Origin: Methanobacteriota archaeon
GTDB taxonomy: Archaea; Halobacteriota; Methanomicrobia; Methanomicrobiales; Methanospirillaceae
Assembly (NCBI GenBank): GCA_029547605.1
Contig: JAKPPB010000020.1
Span: forward strand, 62,001 to 126,000
Direction: 5' to 3'
Length of the DNA: 64,000 nt
Shown: in pieces, positions 53,489-61,172 of the stretch
Numbering within the stretch: the first letter of the stretch is position 1
Layout of the letters: each line of letters opens with the position of its first letter
The notes under the pieces: model-generated
What the model saw: only the letters and a program-made list of their open reading frames with translations
Databases searched by the model: none
Told to the model about the DNA's origin: nothing
Translations under genes and position numbers: made by a program

Positions 53489-54463
53489 ATGTCTGCATTT
53501 TTTGATGGGAAAACAATTTTGATAACAGGAGGCACCGGTTCCTTTGGTCGCATGTTTACCTCCTTACTATTAAAAGAATCAAATCCTGAAAGCATCCGCA
53601 TTTTTTCAAGAGGGGAGTATCTACAATGGGAAATGGAGCAACTGTTTGATGACGAGCGCCTCAGATTCTTTATTGGAGATGTTCGTGATAAAGACCGTCT
53701 ATATCGCGCTTCAGCAGATGCTGATATTATTGTCCATGCTGCAGCACTCAAACAGGTTCCTGCTGCGGAATACAACCCTATCGAAGCAATTAAAACAAAT
53801 ATTGATGGAGCAAGTAACGTCATTGACGCCGCGATTGACAATGAAGTTCAGAGGGTTATGGCAATAAGTACAGATAAGGCAGTCCATCCGGTCAATCTTT
53901 ACGGCGCAACAAAAATGGTCGCTGAAAAATTATTCGTCCAAGGTAATTCCTATGCTGGTGCGAGAAATACAAGATTTGCATGTACTCGTTATGGGAATGT
54001 CGTTGGAAGCAGAGGAAGCATTATCCCGCTTTTCCTGAAACAGAAAGAGAATGGTATCCTCACTATTACGGACCAGAGGATGACACGGTTCTGGTTGACC
54101 CTGGAGCAAGGGGCTGAATTTGTGATGAAATGTATTGAATTAATGAAGGGTGGAGAGATATTTATTCCAAAAATCCCGAGTATGCGAATTATCGATCTTG
54201 CAAAAACAATCGCTCCAGATGCCAAATTAAAAGATATAGGTATCCGACCTGGAGAGAAATTGCATGAAGTCCTCATAACTGAAGATGAGGCTCGTCATGC
54301 AAGAGATTTTGGGCGATATTATGTTATTGAGCCCGAGCTAAAATATTGGCAGGAGACGCCTATTAATGGGGGTAAGAAATTACCGGATGGATTCCGATAT
54401 ACAAGTGATATGAATAAGGACTGGATATCTTCAGATGACTTGCAGAGAATGATAAATATTTAA
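53489..54463 (+). CDS. pseB: UDP-GlcNAc 4,6-dehydratase (inverting), PseB type
   Basis: A 324-residue short-chain dehydrogenase/reductase of the PseB/FlaA1 type. The NADP-binding motif is 'TILITGGTGSFGRMF' (about residues 9-23) and the catalytic segment 'AISTDKAVHPVNLYGATKMVAEKL' is split around residues 124-147, with Asp, Lys and Tyr as in PseB. It makes UDP-2-acetamido-2,6-dideoxy-beta-L-arabino-hexos-4-ulose, the entry step to pseudaminic acid. It starts the plus-strand run of nine or more nonulosonate genes and is followed by the methylase after 22 bases. Confidence 0.92.
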   Translation: MSAFFDGKTILITGGTGSFGRMFTSLLLKESNPESIRIFSRGEYLQWEMEQLFDDERLRFFIGDVRDKDRLYRASADADIIVHAAALKQVPAAEYNPIEAIKTNIDGASNVIDAAIDNEVQRVMAISTDKAVHPVNLYGATKMVAEKLFVQGNSYAGARNTRFACTRYGNVVGSRGSIIPLFLKQKENGILTITDQRMTRFWLTLEQGAEFVMKCIELMKGGEIFIPKIPSMRIIDLAKTIAPDAKLKDIGIRPGEKLHEVLITEDEARHARDFGRYYVIEPELKYWQETPINGGKKLPDGFRYTSDMNKDWISSDDLQRMINI

Positions 54464-55106: not shown

Positions 55107-55139
55107 AAATCCGTGATGTAATCGATGATTGGTGGATAT

Positions 55140-56294
55140 ATGAATTATTGTAGAAGATGTGTATTGCCTGATACGAAACCTGATCTAAAATTAGACGATT
55201 CAGGCATTTGCAGTGCATGCCGGAGCTATGAACGAAGGGCTCATATCGATTGGAATCTCAGAAAAGAGGAGCTTTTATCAATTTTAGAGAAATATAGGTC
55301 TAAAAGTGGGGAGAATTGGGATTGCATCATCCCTGTAAGTGGTGGAAAAGACAGTCATTTTCAAGTCCTAAAAATGCTCGAATATGACATGACCCCCCTT
55401 TGTGTTACCGCAACAACTTGTGATCTCTCAGAAATTGGCAGAAGAAATATTGAAAATATTAAGAATCTTGGTGTCGATTACCTTGAATTCTCTCCTGATA
55501 AAAAAATTCGCAGAATTTTAAACAGGATAGGTTTGTATCAGGTAGGAGATATTTCATGGCCTGAACACGTGTCAATATTTACTATCCCTATACAAGTGGC
55601 AGTCCGTTATAATATTCCCCTTATAATCTGGGGTGAAAACTCCCAAAATGAATATGGTGGACCTGCAGGTGCAAGTGAAAATAATATCCTCAATAGAAGG
55701 TGGCTTGAAGAGTTTGGTGGAATGCTGGGGCTCCGTGTCTCTGATCTGGTTGGATTAAACGGTATAAGGAAAAAAGATCTCCTTCCATATATTTATCCTC
55801 CAGATTCGGAACTGAAGAGGGGCCAAGTAACAGGCCTATTTCTCGGCTATTATCTTCCATGGGACGGGTACTCAAATGCATTGATTGCCCAGGCACATGG
55901 TTTTACAACACTCTCAAAGACTGTTGAGGGTTCATGTGTCAATTATGAAAATTTAGATAATCATCAGACGGGAATTCACGATTATTTTAAATTTCTTAAA
56001 TTTGGTTTTAGTCGTGCTTCAGATATTACATCCCTCCATATAAGAAGAGGGAGATTATCCCGACAAGATGCATGTAAAATTGTCCGGTTACATGATGGCA
56101 AATTTCCGTGGACCTATCTCTCAAAACCGATAGAAGAGATATTGAGGCCCCTGAATATTAATCTTGAAGAATTTATAAAAATTTGTGACAAATTTACAAA
56201 TAAGAAAATTTTCCTGAAAGACTCGTTAGGAAATCTGAAAAAAGATGATCATGGTAATCTTACGAAAATCAAGTACGCCGAGGAGGAGGTATAA
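55140..56294 (+). CDS. pseA: N-acetyl sugar amidotransferase (PseA/WbpG type)
   Basis: A 384-residue PP-loop ATPase. The N-terminus has a zinc knuckle with Cys4, Cys7, Cys24 and Cys27 ('CRRC', 'CSAC'), and the ATP loop 'IPVSGGKDSHF' begins at residue 64. In Campylobacter and Pseudomonas relatives it turns an N-acetyl group into an acetamidino (amidine) group using ammonia delivered by HisH/HisF-like partners, which here are the next two genes. The ATG at 55140 starts the conserved 'MNYCRRCVLPD'; five further codons upstream are possible but less likely. Confidence 0.9.
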   Translation: MNYCRRCVLPDTKPDLKLDDSGICSACRSYERRAHIDWNLRKEELLSILEKYRSKSGENWDCIIPVSGGKDSHFQVLKMLEYDMTPLCVTATTCDLSEIGRRNIENIKNLGVDYLEFSPDKKIRRILNRIGLYQVGDISWPEHVSIFTIPIQVAVRYNIPLIIWGENSQNEYGGPAGASENNILNRRWLEEFGGMLGLRVSDLVGLNGIRKKDLLPYIYPPDSELKRGQVTGLFLGYYLPWDGYSNALIAQAHGFTTLSKTVEGSCVNYENLDNHQTGIHDYFKFLKFGFSRASDITSLHIRRGRLSRQDACKIVRLHDGKFPWTYLSKPIEEILRPLNINLEEFIKICDKFTNKKIFLKDSLGNLKKDDHGNLTKIKYAEEEV

Positions 56295-56307
56295 ATAGCA
56301 GTTTACT

Positions 56308-56925
56308 ATGGTCCGAATAGGTATCATTGATTATGGAATGGGAAATATAAATTCAATTAAAAATGCCGTAGAGAGAAATAGGGGAATACCAATTGTAATT
56401 AATACAGAACAAGAGATAGCATCTGTTGATAAAATAATTCTCCCGGGTGTTGGTTCTTTTTATGAGGGTATAGAAAATTTAAAACGTTTATATTTATTGG
56501 AACCTATTCGGTCAATTTTTTCTGACAGCATACCAATATTAGGGATTTGTCTTGGAATGCAATTGCTTGGAACACTTGGAGAAGAGGGGGGTGTCAACCG
56601 CGGCCTGAATTTAATCGAGGGCATTACGAGACGATTGCACCCACGAGACAATTCTGAGAGAATCCCCCATATCGGATGGAATGAGGTTAATATCATAAAA
56701 TATAATCCATTATTTCATAATATTCCTGATGGGTCTGATTTCTATTTTGTCCATAGTTATCATTTCATACCAGATAATTCGGATTTTATCATTGGGATTA
56801 CGCCATACTGTGGATTATTTACATCCGTCGTTCATAAAAAAAATATATTTGGTGTTCAATTTCATCCAGAAAAAAGCGGCATATTGGGTGCAATAATGAT
56901 TGATAATTTTATAAACAGGATTTAG
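56308..56925 (+). CDS. hisH: HisH-type glutaminase paralogue for sugar amidotransferase
   Basis: A 205-residue class I glutamine amidotransferase. The nucleophile Cys lies in 'ILGICLGMQLLG' (about residue 80), and the His-Glu pair in 'VQFHPEKS' (about 188). It releases ammonia from glutamine. HisH normally pairs with HisF in histidine synthesis; here the pair stands between pseA and pseC with no other his gene, so it most probably feeds ammonia to the PseA-like enzyme. HisF follows after two bases. Confidence 0.88.
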   Translation: MVRIGIIDYGMGNINSIKNAVERNRGIPIVINTEQEIASVDKIILPGVGSFYEGIENLKRLYLLEPIRSIFSDSIPILGICLGMQLLGTLGEEGGVNRGLNLIEGITRRLHPRDNSERIPHIGWNEVNIIKYNPLFHNIPDGSDFYFVHSYHFIPDNSDFIIGITPYCGLFTSVVHKKNIFGVQFHPEKSGILGAIMIDNFINRI

Positions 56926-56927
56926 AA

Positions 56928-57707
56928 ATGCTGAAAATAAGGATCATTCCAACATTATTATGGAAAGACGCAGGTATAGTGAAGGGAGTGGGTTTTGACA
57001 GTTGGAGAAGGGTAGGGCCGGTCCTTCCTGCACTCAAAGTATATACCATGCGAGAAGTCGATGAAATTATTCTCCTCGATATTAATGCAACAAATGAGAA
57101 CCGAGAACCGGATTATCATTCAATTTCAGAATATTGTGAAGAGTGTAACATCCCCCTCACAATCGGTGGTGGAATTAGAGATTCCACATCAATCAAGAAA
57201 TTATTAAGATCTGGTGCCGATAAAATTTCAATTAACTCGGCGGCCTATGAAAATCCTGATATTATTTCGGAAGCAGCCAGGTATTTTGGCTCCCAGTGTA
57301 TTGTGTGTAGTATAGATGTACGAGAACATGTAGACGGCAGTTACGAATGTTATAAAAATTGCGGTACATTACCAACAGGTAAAGATCCGGTTGAATGGGC
57401 CCAACGAATGGAGTCGAAGGGAGCAGGCGAGATACTTCTTACATCAATCAATAGAGATGGGACAATGAGTGGATATGATATTAAATTAATTCGATCAGTA
57501 TCAGATGTGATATCAATCCCTGTTATTGCATCTGGCGGTGCAGGTAATCCTGATCATATTTACCAAGCAATATCAATTGGCAAGGCTTCTGCTGCTGCTG
57601 CCGCAAGTATTTTTCATTTCACGGAACAGACTCCCCTTGAAATTAAGGCATTCCTTGCAGCAAAACACTTACCGGTGAGAATGATAAAGAATACAGTTAT
57701 TATATAA
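56928..57707 (+). CDS. hisF: HisF-type barrel paralogue lacking catalytic Asp11
   Basis: A 259-residue (beta/alpha)8 barrel. Phosphate-binding loops 'TIGGGIRDSTSIKKLL' (about residue 81) and 'VIASGGAGNPDHIYQA' (about 204) and the Asp of 'CSIDVREHVDG' (equivalent to Asp130) are present. However, the N-terminal 'RIIPCLDVKDG' of true HisF is here 'RIIPTLLWKDAG': position 11 is Leu instead of the general-acid Asp. Loss of Asp11 argues against imidazole-glycerol-phosphate synthase activity and for a role as scaffold and ammonia channel to the sugar amidotransferase. Confidence 0.88.
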   Translation: MLKIRIIPTLLWKDAGIVKGVGFDSWRRVGPVLPALKVYTMREVDEIILLDINATNENREPDYHSISEYCEECNIPLTIGGGIRDSTSIKKLLRSGADKISINSAAYENPDIISEAARYFGSQCIVCSIDVREHVDGSYECYKNCGTLPTGKDPVEWAQRMESKGAGEILLTSINRDGTMSGYDIKLIRSVSDVISIPVIASGGAGNPDHIYQAISIGKASAAAAASIFHFTEQTPLEIKAFLAAKHLPVRMIKNTVII

Positions 57708-57726
57708 TTACCAATCAAAAACGGTG

Positions 57727-58929
57727 ATGTATATTTCATTCCCCAATCTCCTTGCAATAAACGGAGGCACTCCAGTCAGGGAAACACTTCTTCCTTATGG
57801 CCATCAATGGATCGATCGTTCGGATATAAACGCTGTAATGGACGTTTTATCATCCGAATGGTTAACAACAGGGCCTCTTGTCAATAAATTTGAAACCTGC
57901 TTTTCAGAATTCACTAATTCCAAGAATGCCGTTGCAGTAAGCAGTGGAACGGCAGCACTTCACTCAGCAATATTTGCCGCGGGAATAAAAAAGGGAGACG
58001 AAGTAATCGTTCCCGCAATTACTTTTGTTGCAACAGCAAACTGCGTTCTCTATCTAGGGGGTATACCAGTATTCGCAGATATTGAACCAGATACTCTGCT
58101 TATCGACCCCGATGTCATTCAGAGTCTTATTACTCCAAAAACCAAGGCGATCATCGCCATGGATTACGCAGGGCAACCTTGTGATTATGGCGCCTTGAGA
58201 GATATTGCAGAAGACCATGATCTTATTCTAATTGCCGATGCTTGCCACTCTCTCGGAGGCAAACACCATAATAAAATGGTTGGATCGCTCGCAGATCTGA
58301 ATGTATTTAGCTTCCATCCGGTAAAGGCTATTACTACCGGAGAGGGAGGCATGATTACGACGGATAATGACGAATTGGCAAAAAAAATGCGAATTTTTCG
58401 AAATCATGGCATTTCTACTGATCACAGAGAACGACAGATAAAGGGGTCCTGGAATTATGAAATGATTGAGCTTGGATTCAATTATCGGATCACAGATTTT
58501 CAATGTGCACTCGGAATATCTCAATTAAAAAAATTGCCTCGATGGATCGAGCGAAGAAATTTCATTGCACTGGAATATATTAATTGTCTAAAAGAACTTC
58601 CAGAAATCGTTCCTTTAATAACTAAATCCAATAATATTAATGCATATCATCTCTTTGTAATTATACTAGAATCTGGTAAATTAGAAAATCAGCGAGATTA
58701 TATTTTCAAAGCACTTCGTGCCGAGGGTATAGGGGTAAACGTTCATTATTCACCGGTATATTACCATCCATATTATCAAATCTCTTTAAAGTATTCACGA
58801 GGAATGTGTCCTAAAGCTGAAAATATTTTCCCGCGGCTCTTATCACTTCCCATTTATCCGGCCATGCAAGAACGGGATCTCAACGACGTAAGAACAGCAT
58901 TGAGAAAAGTCACCGACGCTGTATTATGA
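57727..58929 (+). CDS. pseC: PseC-type sugar aminotransferase
   Basis: A 400-residue DegT/DnrJ/EryC1/StrS family PLP enzyme. The PLP-binding motifs are 'AVSSGTAALHSAIFAAG' (about residue 73), 'IADACHSLGG' (about 165) and the Schiff-base Lys in 'FHPVKAITTGEGG' (about 199). It aminates C4 of the PseB product. A GTG directly before the ATG is an alternative start. The stop overlaps the next gene's ATG by four bases. Confidence 0.9.
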   Translation: MYISFPNLLAINGGTPVRETLLPYGHQWIDRSDINAVMDVLSSEWLTTGPLVNKFETCFSEFTNSKNAVAVSSGTAALHSAIFAAGIKKGDEVIVPAITFVATANCVLYLGGIPVFADIEPDTLLIDPDVIQSLITPKTKAIIAMDYAGQPCDYGALRDIAEDHDLILIADACHSLGGKHHNKMVGSLADLNVFSFHPVKAITTGEGGMITTDNDELAKKMRIFRNHGISTDHRERQIKGSWNYEMIELGFNYRITDFQCALGISQLKKLPRWIERRNFIALEYINCLKELPEIVPLITKSNNINAYHLFVIILESGKLENQRDYIFKALRAEGIGVNVHYSPVYYHPYYQISLKYSRGMCPKAENIFPRLLSLPIYPAMQERDLNDVRTALRKVTDAVL

Positions 58930-59654
58930 GGATTATTGCGATTATTCAGGCGAGAATGGGAAGTTCAAGATTACCGGGTAAAGCTTTGAAAGATTTAATT
59001 GGTGAGCCAATGCTTGTCCATATCCATAACAGGGTATGTCAGAGCACATTGATAAATGACATCATAATCGCCACAACAGAGTCGGAAAAGGATGATATCA
59101 TTGTTGATTTATGCCACGATAAAAAATGGTTATTTTTTCGGGGGAGCGAAAATGATGTTTTGGATCGATATTATCAAGCGGCAAGAATCTTCAATGGGGA
59201 TATTATCGTAAGGATCACATCCGATTGTCCAATCATTGATGCATCAATAATTGATAATATACTGAAAAAATATTTAGACCAACCTAAAGCTCCTGATTAT
59301 GCCTCAAATGTCTATCCAGTGAGAACATTCCCACAAGGCCTTGATACAGAGGTTTTTAGTTTTCAAGCTTTAGAAAGAGCATGGAAAGAAGATAATAATC
59401 CAGTATTAAGAGAACATGTGACACAATATATCATAAAAAATCCGAACATATTCAATATAATCTGTGTTACGAATCCAATTGATTTTTCATGCCATCGATG
59501 GACAGTTGATACTATTGAAGATTTTACCCTCATTAAAGCAATTTATGAACATTTTGGTCATGACAGATTTTCATGGACTGCAGTCCTGAATTTTCTCACC
59601 CAAAATCCCCAGTTATCAGAGATAAACAAGCATATTCCCCAGAAGGTGATCTGA
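58926..59654 (+). CDS. SpsF-type cytidylyltransferase, probable CMP-sugar synthase
   Basis: A 242-residue protein of the SpsF/COG1861 nucleotidyltransferase family. The nucleotide-binding N-terminus is 'IIAIIQARMGSSRLPGKAL' (residues 3-21), with 'DVLDRYYQAARIFNGDIIVRITSDCP' split at about residues 79-104, and 'HRWTVDTIEDFTLI' near 190. Members of this family stand in for PseF, which activates the finished nonulosonate with CTP. It ends with UGA directly followed, in the same frame, by the PseG coding sequence, so the two proteins may derive from one fused gene. Confidence 0.82.
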   Translation: MRIIAIIQARMGSSRLPGKALKDLIGEPMLVHIHNRVCQSTLINDIIIATTESEKDDIIVDLCHDKKWLFFRGSENDVLDRYYQAARIFNGDIIVRITSDCPIIDASIIDNILKKYLDQPKAPDYASNVYPVRTFPQGLDTEVFSFQALERAWKEDNNPVLREHVTQYIIKNPNIFNIICVTNPIDFSCHRWTVDTIEDFTLIKAIYEHFGHDRFSWTAVLNFLTQNPQLSEINKHIPQKVI

Positions 59655-61172
59655 ATCAATCTCGATAGGAACAAGACAATTATCTTTCGGGCTGATGCAG
59701 ACTCTGATATAGGAACCGGGCACCTCATGCGATGCCTTGCCGTTGCCCAGACATGGATCGATCTTGGAGGTACTGCAATACTGGCCACCAAACCTGGTTC
59801 TTTTCAAATCGAAAACAGATATCACGCAGAAAATATCTGTGTTGAACATATCCTTTCAATTCCCGGATCAATTGAGGATGCAAACGAAATTATAAAATTA
59901 TCTGAAAAAAATTCATCAAAATGGGTTATAATCGATGGGTATCATTTCCACGTAAAGTTCTTCAAATCATTAAAGAATGCCGGATTAAAAACAATTTTTA
60001 TTGATGATTTCGGCCAGATAACCACAGATTGTATAGATATAATTGTGAATCCAAATATTTATGCAAAATCTTTATTCTCAAAAAATCACATGAATAATTC
60101 AGCCTTATTATTGGGCCCTGAATATTATCCAATTAGAAGGGAGTTTTTTAGAGCAAGGAACTTTTCTAGGGATTTCTCTATTAGAACAATTCATATTCTG
60201 ATCACAATGGGTGGTGCCGATCCGAAAAATATTACATGGCAAATAATAAAAGCGCTCGATTGTTGTGATCTTTCTGACATCGAAATCATAGTTCTTGTCG
60301 GACCCCAGAATAAACATTATGAAAAATTAAAGGACGATATTAAAAAAATTAATTCATCGATTCGTTTGATTCAAAATCCAAGAGATATTCCAGAATTAAT
60401 GATTTGGGCTGACATCGGAATAAGTTCCGCGGGGACGACCACGTATGAACTGGCATTTATGAGACTCCCTTCATTCATTATTAAGATCGCAGAAAACCAG
60501 CTTTTTAACATCAATACTTATTCAAAACTTGGAGTTTTCGAAATAATAAATAATTCAGATCTCGCAGATCCTAGCATATTATGCAGAAAAATCCAGCAAT
60601 GGATTGAAAACCCAGGTTTTCGAGAGCAAACATCATCCAAACTTTCAGATATTATTGATGGGTACGGATCTGAACGAATTTTTGCGAATATTGAGGATTC
60701 GGTTGTGTTGAGACCAGTCCATAAAGATGACTGTTACAGGATTTGGCAGTGGGCAAATGACCCTGATGTTCGAGCATCTTCATTCAATTCTTTACCTATA
60801 TCCCTTGAAGACCATAAGAAGTGGTTTTTCGAAAAGATTGGAGATAAAAATTGTTTGTTCTTTATAGTTACATTACACACTATTCCAATCGCTCAACTGC
60901 GTTTTGATCTTGAAGGTCATTCAGCCAAGATCTCATTCATGATAGATAAGGATTTCAGAGGGAAAGGATATGGTGAACAGATTATCAGACTTGCATGTCG
61001 GTACCTTTTCCGTAAATTCAATATAGAATGTATCCATGCCTATGTTTTGCAGAGCAATTCAATATCGATAAAAACTTTTACAAAATCTGGATTTCATTTT
61101 CTCGCTACTGAGAGGATACATAATCACAAAGCAATTCATTTCGTTCTTGAAAAAGATGATTATTATGTCTGA
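59655..61172 (+). CDS. PseG-PseH fusion: UDP-sugar hydrolase and N-acetyltransferase
   Basis: About 505 codons. Residues 1-340 are PseG, a GT-B-fold hydrolase that frees 2,4-diacetamido-2,4,6-trideoxy-altrose from UDP. Its essential loop 'RADADSDIGTGHLMRC' is at residues 12-27 (His23 matches the catalytic His17 of C. jejuni PseG), and 'MGGADPKNITW' and 'SAGTTTYELAFM' follow. Residues ~350-500 are a GNAT domain like PseH ('LRPVHKDDCYRIWQWANDP', 'KDFRGKGYGEQII'), which acetylates N4. No ATG, GTG or TTG precedes the first Met (59727), which lies after His23. Translation must start at a rare codon (ATC 59655 or ATT 59679) behind the strong AGGTGATC at 59644-59651, or arise by read-through. Confidence 0.8.
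   Translation: MNLDRNKTIIFRADADSDIGTGHLMRCLAVAQTWIDLGGTAILATKPGSFQIENRYHAENICVEHILSIPGSIEDANEIIKLSEKNSSKWVIIDGYHFHVKFFKSLKNAGLKTIFIDDFGQITTDCIDIIVNPNIYAKSLFSKNHMNNSALLLGPEYYPIRREFFRARNFSRDFSIRTIHILITMGGADPKNITWQIIKALDCCDLSDIEIIVLVGPQNKHYEKLKDDIKKINSSIRLIQNPRDIPELMIWADIGISSAGTTTYELAFMRLPSFIIKIAENQLFNINTYSKLGVFEIINNSDLADPSILCRKIQQWIENPGFREQTSSKLSDIIDGYGSERIFANIEDSVVLRPVHKDDCYRIWQWANDPDVRASSFNSLPISLEDHKKWFFEKIGDKNCLFFIVTLHTIPIAQLRFDLEGHSAKISFMIDKDFRGKGYGEQIIRLACRYLFRKFNIECIHAYVLQSNSISIKTFTKSGFHFLATERIHNHKAIHFVLEKDDYYV

Follow-up and report, generated by a model that had tools for sequence, protein, structure and literature searches.

A probable AUC start codon directly after an in-frame stop in a pseudaminic-acid-type operon of Methanospirillaceae, and candidate near-cognate starts in cas8e and rpoB''

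The PseG-PseH fusion protein of a Methanospirillaceae archaeon is probably translated from an AUC codon that directly follows the UGA stop of the upstream SpsF-like cytidylyltransferase gene, with initiation coupled to upstream termination and of low efficiency. The same codon, Shine-Dalgarno (SD) sequence, and spacing recur in a second genus. Candidate non-canonical starts are also present elsewhere in genomes of the order. With somewhat less confidence, it is likely that Methanomicrobiales accept near-cognate AUU, AUC, AUA, and CUG codons behind a well-placed strong SD in several chromosomal genes (rpoB'', which codes for a core subunit of RNA polymerase, with CUG order-wide; cas8e, with AUU, AUA, or AUC; and pseG, with AUC), that this sets low expression, and that gene finders restricted to ATG, GTG, and TTG miscall all of these N termini. 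The window (the whole stretch of DNA analyzed, 64,000 nucleotides) derives from a 2.26-Mb draft genome in 128 contigs. Its relatives place it among the methanogens of the order Methanomicrobiales, and the related genomes searched include deposits named Methanoregula and Methanoregulaceae.

The spsF-pseG junction

The operon, judged by its gene content, is of the pseudaminic-acid type and codes for PseB, a sugar amidotransferase, HisH- and HisF-like proteins, PseC, a cytidylyltransferase, a PseG-PseH-like protein, and PseI, which lies downstream of pseGH (TIGR03586, 493.8 bits versus a cut-off of 340.25). The region from 55125 to 57707 contains an N-acetyl sugar amidotransferase of the WbuX family followed by the HisH- and HisF-like genes, all within the pseudaminic acid cluster; the HisH/HisF-like names come from reading the sequence, and the presence of these genes with the amidotransferase suggests an amidino-modified sugar. 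All junctions from pseC to pseI are tight, with a 4-nt ATGA overlap of the pseC stop and spsF start (58926-58929) and the ATGTCTGA overlap between pseGH and pseI. A genome search found a single PseG in the source genome.

Table 1. Features of the pseudaminic-acid-type cluster and of the spsF-pseG junction (window coordinates)
Feature	Position	Strand	Evidence or remark
PseB (UDP-GlcNAc 4,6-dehydratase, inverting)	53489..54463	+	TIGR03589, 511 bits (cut-off 407.75)
PseC aminotransferase	57724..58929	+	TIGR03588, 456.3 bits (cut-off 423.5)
SpsF/PseF-like cytidylyltransferase	58926..59654	+	PF02348, 130.6 bits; ends ..INKHIPQKVI-TGA
Shine-Dalgarno AGGTGATC, 8-nt match to anti-SD GATCACCT	59644..59651	+	Pairing energy -13.4 kcal/mol; aligned spacing 8
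TGA stop of SpsF	59652..59654	+	Sequence; in frame with PseG
ATC, proposed PseG-PseH start codon	59655..59657	+	Same SD/stop distance in L038/L100; position of the relatives' ATG
PseG-PseH fusion protein gene, 505 codons	59655..61172	+	TIGR03590, residues 8-285; TIGR03585, residues 352-492
GTGH-loop His codon, CAC	59721..59723	+	Aligned with His17 of C. jejuni PseG (3hbm)
First canonical in-frame start, ATG	59727..59729	+	Sequence
pseGH end/pseI start overlap ATGTCTGA, 8 nt	61165..61172	+	Sequence

The junction reads CAG AAG GTG ATC TGA ATC AAT, and the pseGH frame is open throughout in the phase of the SpsF stop, with no ATG, GTG, or TTG until a position already past the GTGH loop. The initial annotation had placed the stop, the same-phase frame, and the first canonical start at these coordinates, and had read PseG-conserved sequence, including the catalytic-histidine loop, ahead of the first ATG; both readings are borne out. 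TIGR03590 (PseG) matches with 192.8 bits, above its cut-off of 153.55; in the protein read from the ATC, the match begins at residue 8, which is 17 codons upstream of the first canonical start. Within the 24 residues before that ATG, seven columns are conserved in at least 85% of 76 relatives, and all seven are kept here. The structure of Campylobacter jejuni PseG (3hbm) aligns over the first strand and the GTGH loop, of which G20, G22, and H23 are retained, and a start at 59727 would remove both the first beta strand and this loop. Together, the profile match, the structural alignment, and the conserved columns require that translation begin before 59727. The C-terminal part of the protein is called only a PseH-like acetyltransferase, because TIGR03585 (PseH) scores 60 bits, under its cut-off of 93.1, while PF13302 shows a clear GNAT domain.

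The eight-base anti-SD match that the initial annotation had noted next to the stop also holds. The source assembly yielded no 16S gene, and the anti-SD was therefore taken from the 16S gene of a Methanoregula genome (GGATCACCTCCT). Stretches totaling about 0.78 Mb served as the sample of the source genome. Of 56 unambiguous ATG starts, 5% reach the pairing energy of this site, as do 0.4% of random 20-mers from the genome. The ATC follows the aligned GGAGG at a distance of 8 nt. In unambiguous ATG starts, positions -14 to -7 are purine- and G-rich, and pseG has GGTG at -10 to -7. Part of the SD match may reflect coding constraint, since AAGGTGAT doubles as the coding sequence for the QKV end of SpsF. 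Genome-wide, AUH triplets are not enriched behind SD-like words, and neither are ATG, GTG, or TTG in the same test. The stop-to-ATC distance of 0 nt and the position of the SD inside spsF agree with the layout of termination-reinitiation pairs, which have a stop-start distance of about -8 to +10 nt and an SD in the upstream gene.

We infer from the sequence that the ribosome uses the AUC, that the protein carries an N-terminal methionine, and that its translation is coupled to that of SpsF with a low yield. A ribosome finishing SpsF would be retained at the junction because AGGUGAUC pairs over eight bases with the 3' end of 16S rRNA, and this pairing would put the AUC into the P site, where initiator Met-tRNA would start despite the third-position mismatch. 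Translation of PseG-PseH would then be coupled to that of SpsF and would probably be weak relative to an AUG start, so that the hydrolase/acetyltransferase would be kept low relative to its neighbors.

PseG relatives and alternative explanations

The comparison covered about 95 archaeal and bacterial PseG loci; besides the window, one of them (L038, the same as L100) has no canonical PseG start. A scan of named genomes with a single PseG protein gave no match, whereas an alignment-based scan did. L038 belongs to another genus (Methanoregula sp. C8_metabat.bin.12, contig JAUYTV010000040.1), where PseG (L038:1024-2526) has a frame open over 501 codons and the junction reads CAA AAG GTG ATA TAG ATC CCA. 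Both junctions have a common layout of AAGGTGAT, 4 nt, and then ATC, with SpsF and PseG in the same phase, but the stop is TGA in one and TAG in the other, the flanking codons differ, and the two PseGs are about 30% identical. The residues following the stop are also unlike (INLDRNKT in the window, IPEP in Methanoregula). The window ATC falls at the position of the relatives' ATG (MKSLIIRADAS, MSNLIIRADAS, MNPLVIRADAG), and that of Methanoregula gives a PseG N terminus of the usual length (MPEPLIVF). In the Methanoregula PseG, the RADA/GTGH motif, which is conserved in the others, carries R-to-H and T-to-G changes.

Other PseG genes of the order that adjoin spsF (L033, L037, L005, and L044) are in another phase and have their own ATG, which in L033 is 8 nt past the SpsF stop. 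The window SpsF groups with the SpsF proteins of Methanoregula and L033 (support 91/80), and its C terminus is where SpsF relatives end (..QKxx). The initial annotation had suggested that a recently split fusion gene would account for the shared phase, a suggestion that finds no support here: the SpsF C terminus is the usual one, and the nearest pairs are separate, with PseG in another phase and with an ATG. By itself a shared phase is a 1-in-3 event, and it follows automatically from a start codon placed directly after a stop. The comparison with relatives proposed earlier, in search of fusions or an ATG at this position, turned up separate, ATG-started genes in the nearest pairs, and one fusion elsewhere in the order: L009 (G041:C6, 691-2526), a natural SpsF-PseG fusion of 612 codons.

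The two ATC-started PseGs are weakly sister to each other (75/42), a grouping confounded by their long branches (1.81 and 1.63, versus a median of 0.53). A single origin of both ATC starts is nevertheless likely; had this codon arisen twice behind the same SD, function would be indicated even more strongly. The ATC junction in a second genus, with a different stop, argues at once against a sequencing error, against recoding specific to UGA, and against a fusion that split recently. Of the options raised initially, it is the AUC start that the comparison supports, since codon, SD, and spacing are the same in the second genus and other non-canonical starts occur in the order.

The main rival is that some ribosomes read the UGA (UAG in Methanoregula) as sense, making an SpsF-PseG-PseH fusion that would be the sole source of PseG. 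This is not absurd given L009, in which a member of the order has a true SpsF-PseG fusion with a linker of similar length, and the two reading frames share their phase in both genomes. It is nonetheless unlikely: the stops differ between the genomes, read-through would need no SD at this place, SpsF ends at its usual C terminus, and there is no conservation in the residues right after the stop. Moreover, searches for tRNA-Sec and PylS gave no match over the family cut-off in the source genome, the Methanoregula genome, or a third genome (G004). Read-through of the UGA, as offered in the initial annotation, is accordingly disfavored.

Less probable still is gene decay, in which the PseG start codon has been lost and expression is weak or absent in both lineages. 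The long branches of both PseGs would fit this, as would their retention of fewer strongly conserved columns (59 and 62 of 75, versus 67 to 72 in four relatives), but both frames are intact and the key motif residues are kept in the window PseG. In addition, this is the one PseG found in the genome, it sits beside PseB, PseC, and PseI, and the SD with its ATC is kept in two genera. The long branches also fit low expression, with relaxed constraint another possible reading.

A sequence or assembly error, with a true base that gives ATG, GTG, or TTG at 59655, is very improbable. The genome is a draft and a single-base difference would yield a normal start, but the same ATC junction recurs in a genome of another genus that was assembled independently, and non-canonical starts occur in many genomes of the order; this option of the initial annotation is accordingly judged unlikely. 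Least credible is a start at a downstream non-canonical codon (ATT at 59679 or ATC at 59682, giving M-I-F-R-A-D), which would provide a PseG N terminus of the usual length but would be more than 25 nt from the SD, while the ATC after the Methanoregula stop already gives that length.

Candidate non-canonical starts in cas8e and rpoB''

A search for frames with late canonical starts returned mostly antisense or chance frames, and cas8e (cse1) alone stood out. In the source genome (G000:C20:3154; L177:3154-4806), PF09481 matches from model position 1 at residue 9 of the frame, and no canonical start precedes the one at residue 19. The start region reads GGGGGGTGATCC-ATT-ATT, and its counterparts in two congeners, 91% and 69% identical, read GGGGGGTGATCC-ACC-ATT and GGAGGTGATCC-ACC-ATT (loci among L197-L199). 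The AUU that is kept in these two congeners lies 9 nt after GGAGG in a near-perfect SD (-19 kcal/mol), and cas8e of the source genome thus appears, from these alignments, to begin at AUU. In other genera of the order, some loci have ATA, ATC, or ATT behind the cas8e SD and others have ATG. SD energies range from -9.7 to -19.4 kcal/mol in the non-canonical group, versus mostly -4 to -10.5 kcal/mol, with one at -15.6, in the ATG group.

Comparison of 274 gene pairs with a congener for further non-canonical starts gave one clear case, rpoB'' (G000:C3, minus strand, near 60261; loci compared, L287-L346); most of the other candidates were set aside as upstream read-in, since their substitution patterns were those of non-coding sequence. 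Nearly all Methanomicrobiales loci read have CTG as the codon preceding (I/L)DRSVLS, behind GGAG/GGGG-CTGATC, and two members of the order have TTG. Sister lineages of the phylum have GTG at this position in five loci and ATG in one, and haloarchaea-like loci differ in length at the start region. The contrast of CTG in the order with GTG or ATG in the sister lineages marks this position as the rpoB'' start, with CTG as its form in the order, and rpoB'' appears, on these alignments, to start at CUG across Methanomicrobiales. An ATT had been considered as the rpoB'' start and was dropped once additional genomes revealed a CTG one codon upstream that hardly varies. Three loci (L301, L306, and L308) have an ATG or TTG inside an SD-like word upstream, a possible alternative start for them. 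One genome contains two identical-scoring rpoB'' matches 15.7 kb apart (G103:C1:274081 and 289801), perhaps a duplication or an assembly artefact.

Relation to known initiation and reinitiation systems

Archaeal start codons are listed as AUG, GUG, and UUG (PMC7531240), and as of 2021, non-canonical events in archaea had been demonstrated only for elongation and termination (PMC8211752). No report of near-cognate starts in Methanomicrobiales or of CUG starts in archaea was found in the open-access literature, outside which most subscription journals lie. Near-cognate starts with a strong SD are known in bacteria, and their apparent occurrence in archaea would be new to the literature searched. 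If true, conserved initiation at AUC, AUU, or CUG would mean that SD pairing can compensate for a P-site mismatch in an initiation system of eukaryote-like type (aIF1/aIF1A/aIF2), and gene models throughout an order of methanogens would probably misplace the N termini of conserved genes such as rpoB'' and cas8e. The pseG, cas8e, and rpoB'' starts provide concrete test sequences for archaeal near-cognate initiation.

In Staphylococcus aureus, AUU and AUA starts with an extended SD yield about 10% of AUG (PMC13009471), and for Escherichia coli AUU is reported to reach some 0.3% of the AUG level (Hecht et al., cited through PMC10666635). Because such starts are weak in both species, PseG would be expected at a low level; the AUC is carried by only two loci, and its yield could be very low. 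The S. aureus genes infC, cvfC1, ccpN, and citZ (PMC13009471) resemble pseG in having a near-cognate AUN codon, a strong or extended SD at the right spacing, and conservation across species. They were tested by ribosome profiling and reporters (PMC13009471), whereas the proposed pseG start is archaeal, is an AUC directly after an upstream stop, and is deduced here from sequence comparison.

Archaeal termination-reinitiation operates over very short distances only (PMC10666635) and is often SD aided (PMC6728339). The pairs described (PMC6728339, PMC10666635) share with spsF-pseG an abutting stop and start, an SD in the upstream gene, and a tight operon, but they have canonical starts (ATGA, TGATG), whereas pseG has an AUC right after the stop and hence the shared phase. 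Among the relatives, L009 likewise has a cytidylyltransferase followed in frame by PseG, although with no stop between the domains and with a PseG of a different subfamily. L033, L037, L005, and L044 match the window in gene order and in the SpsF C terminus, and differ from it in that PseG has its own ATG and lies in another phase.
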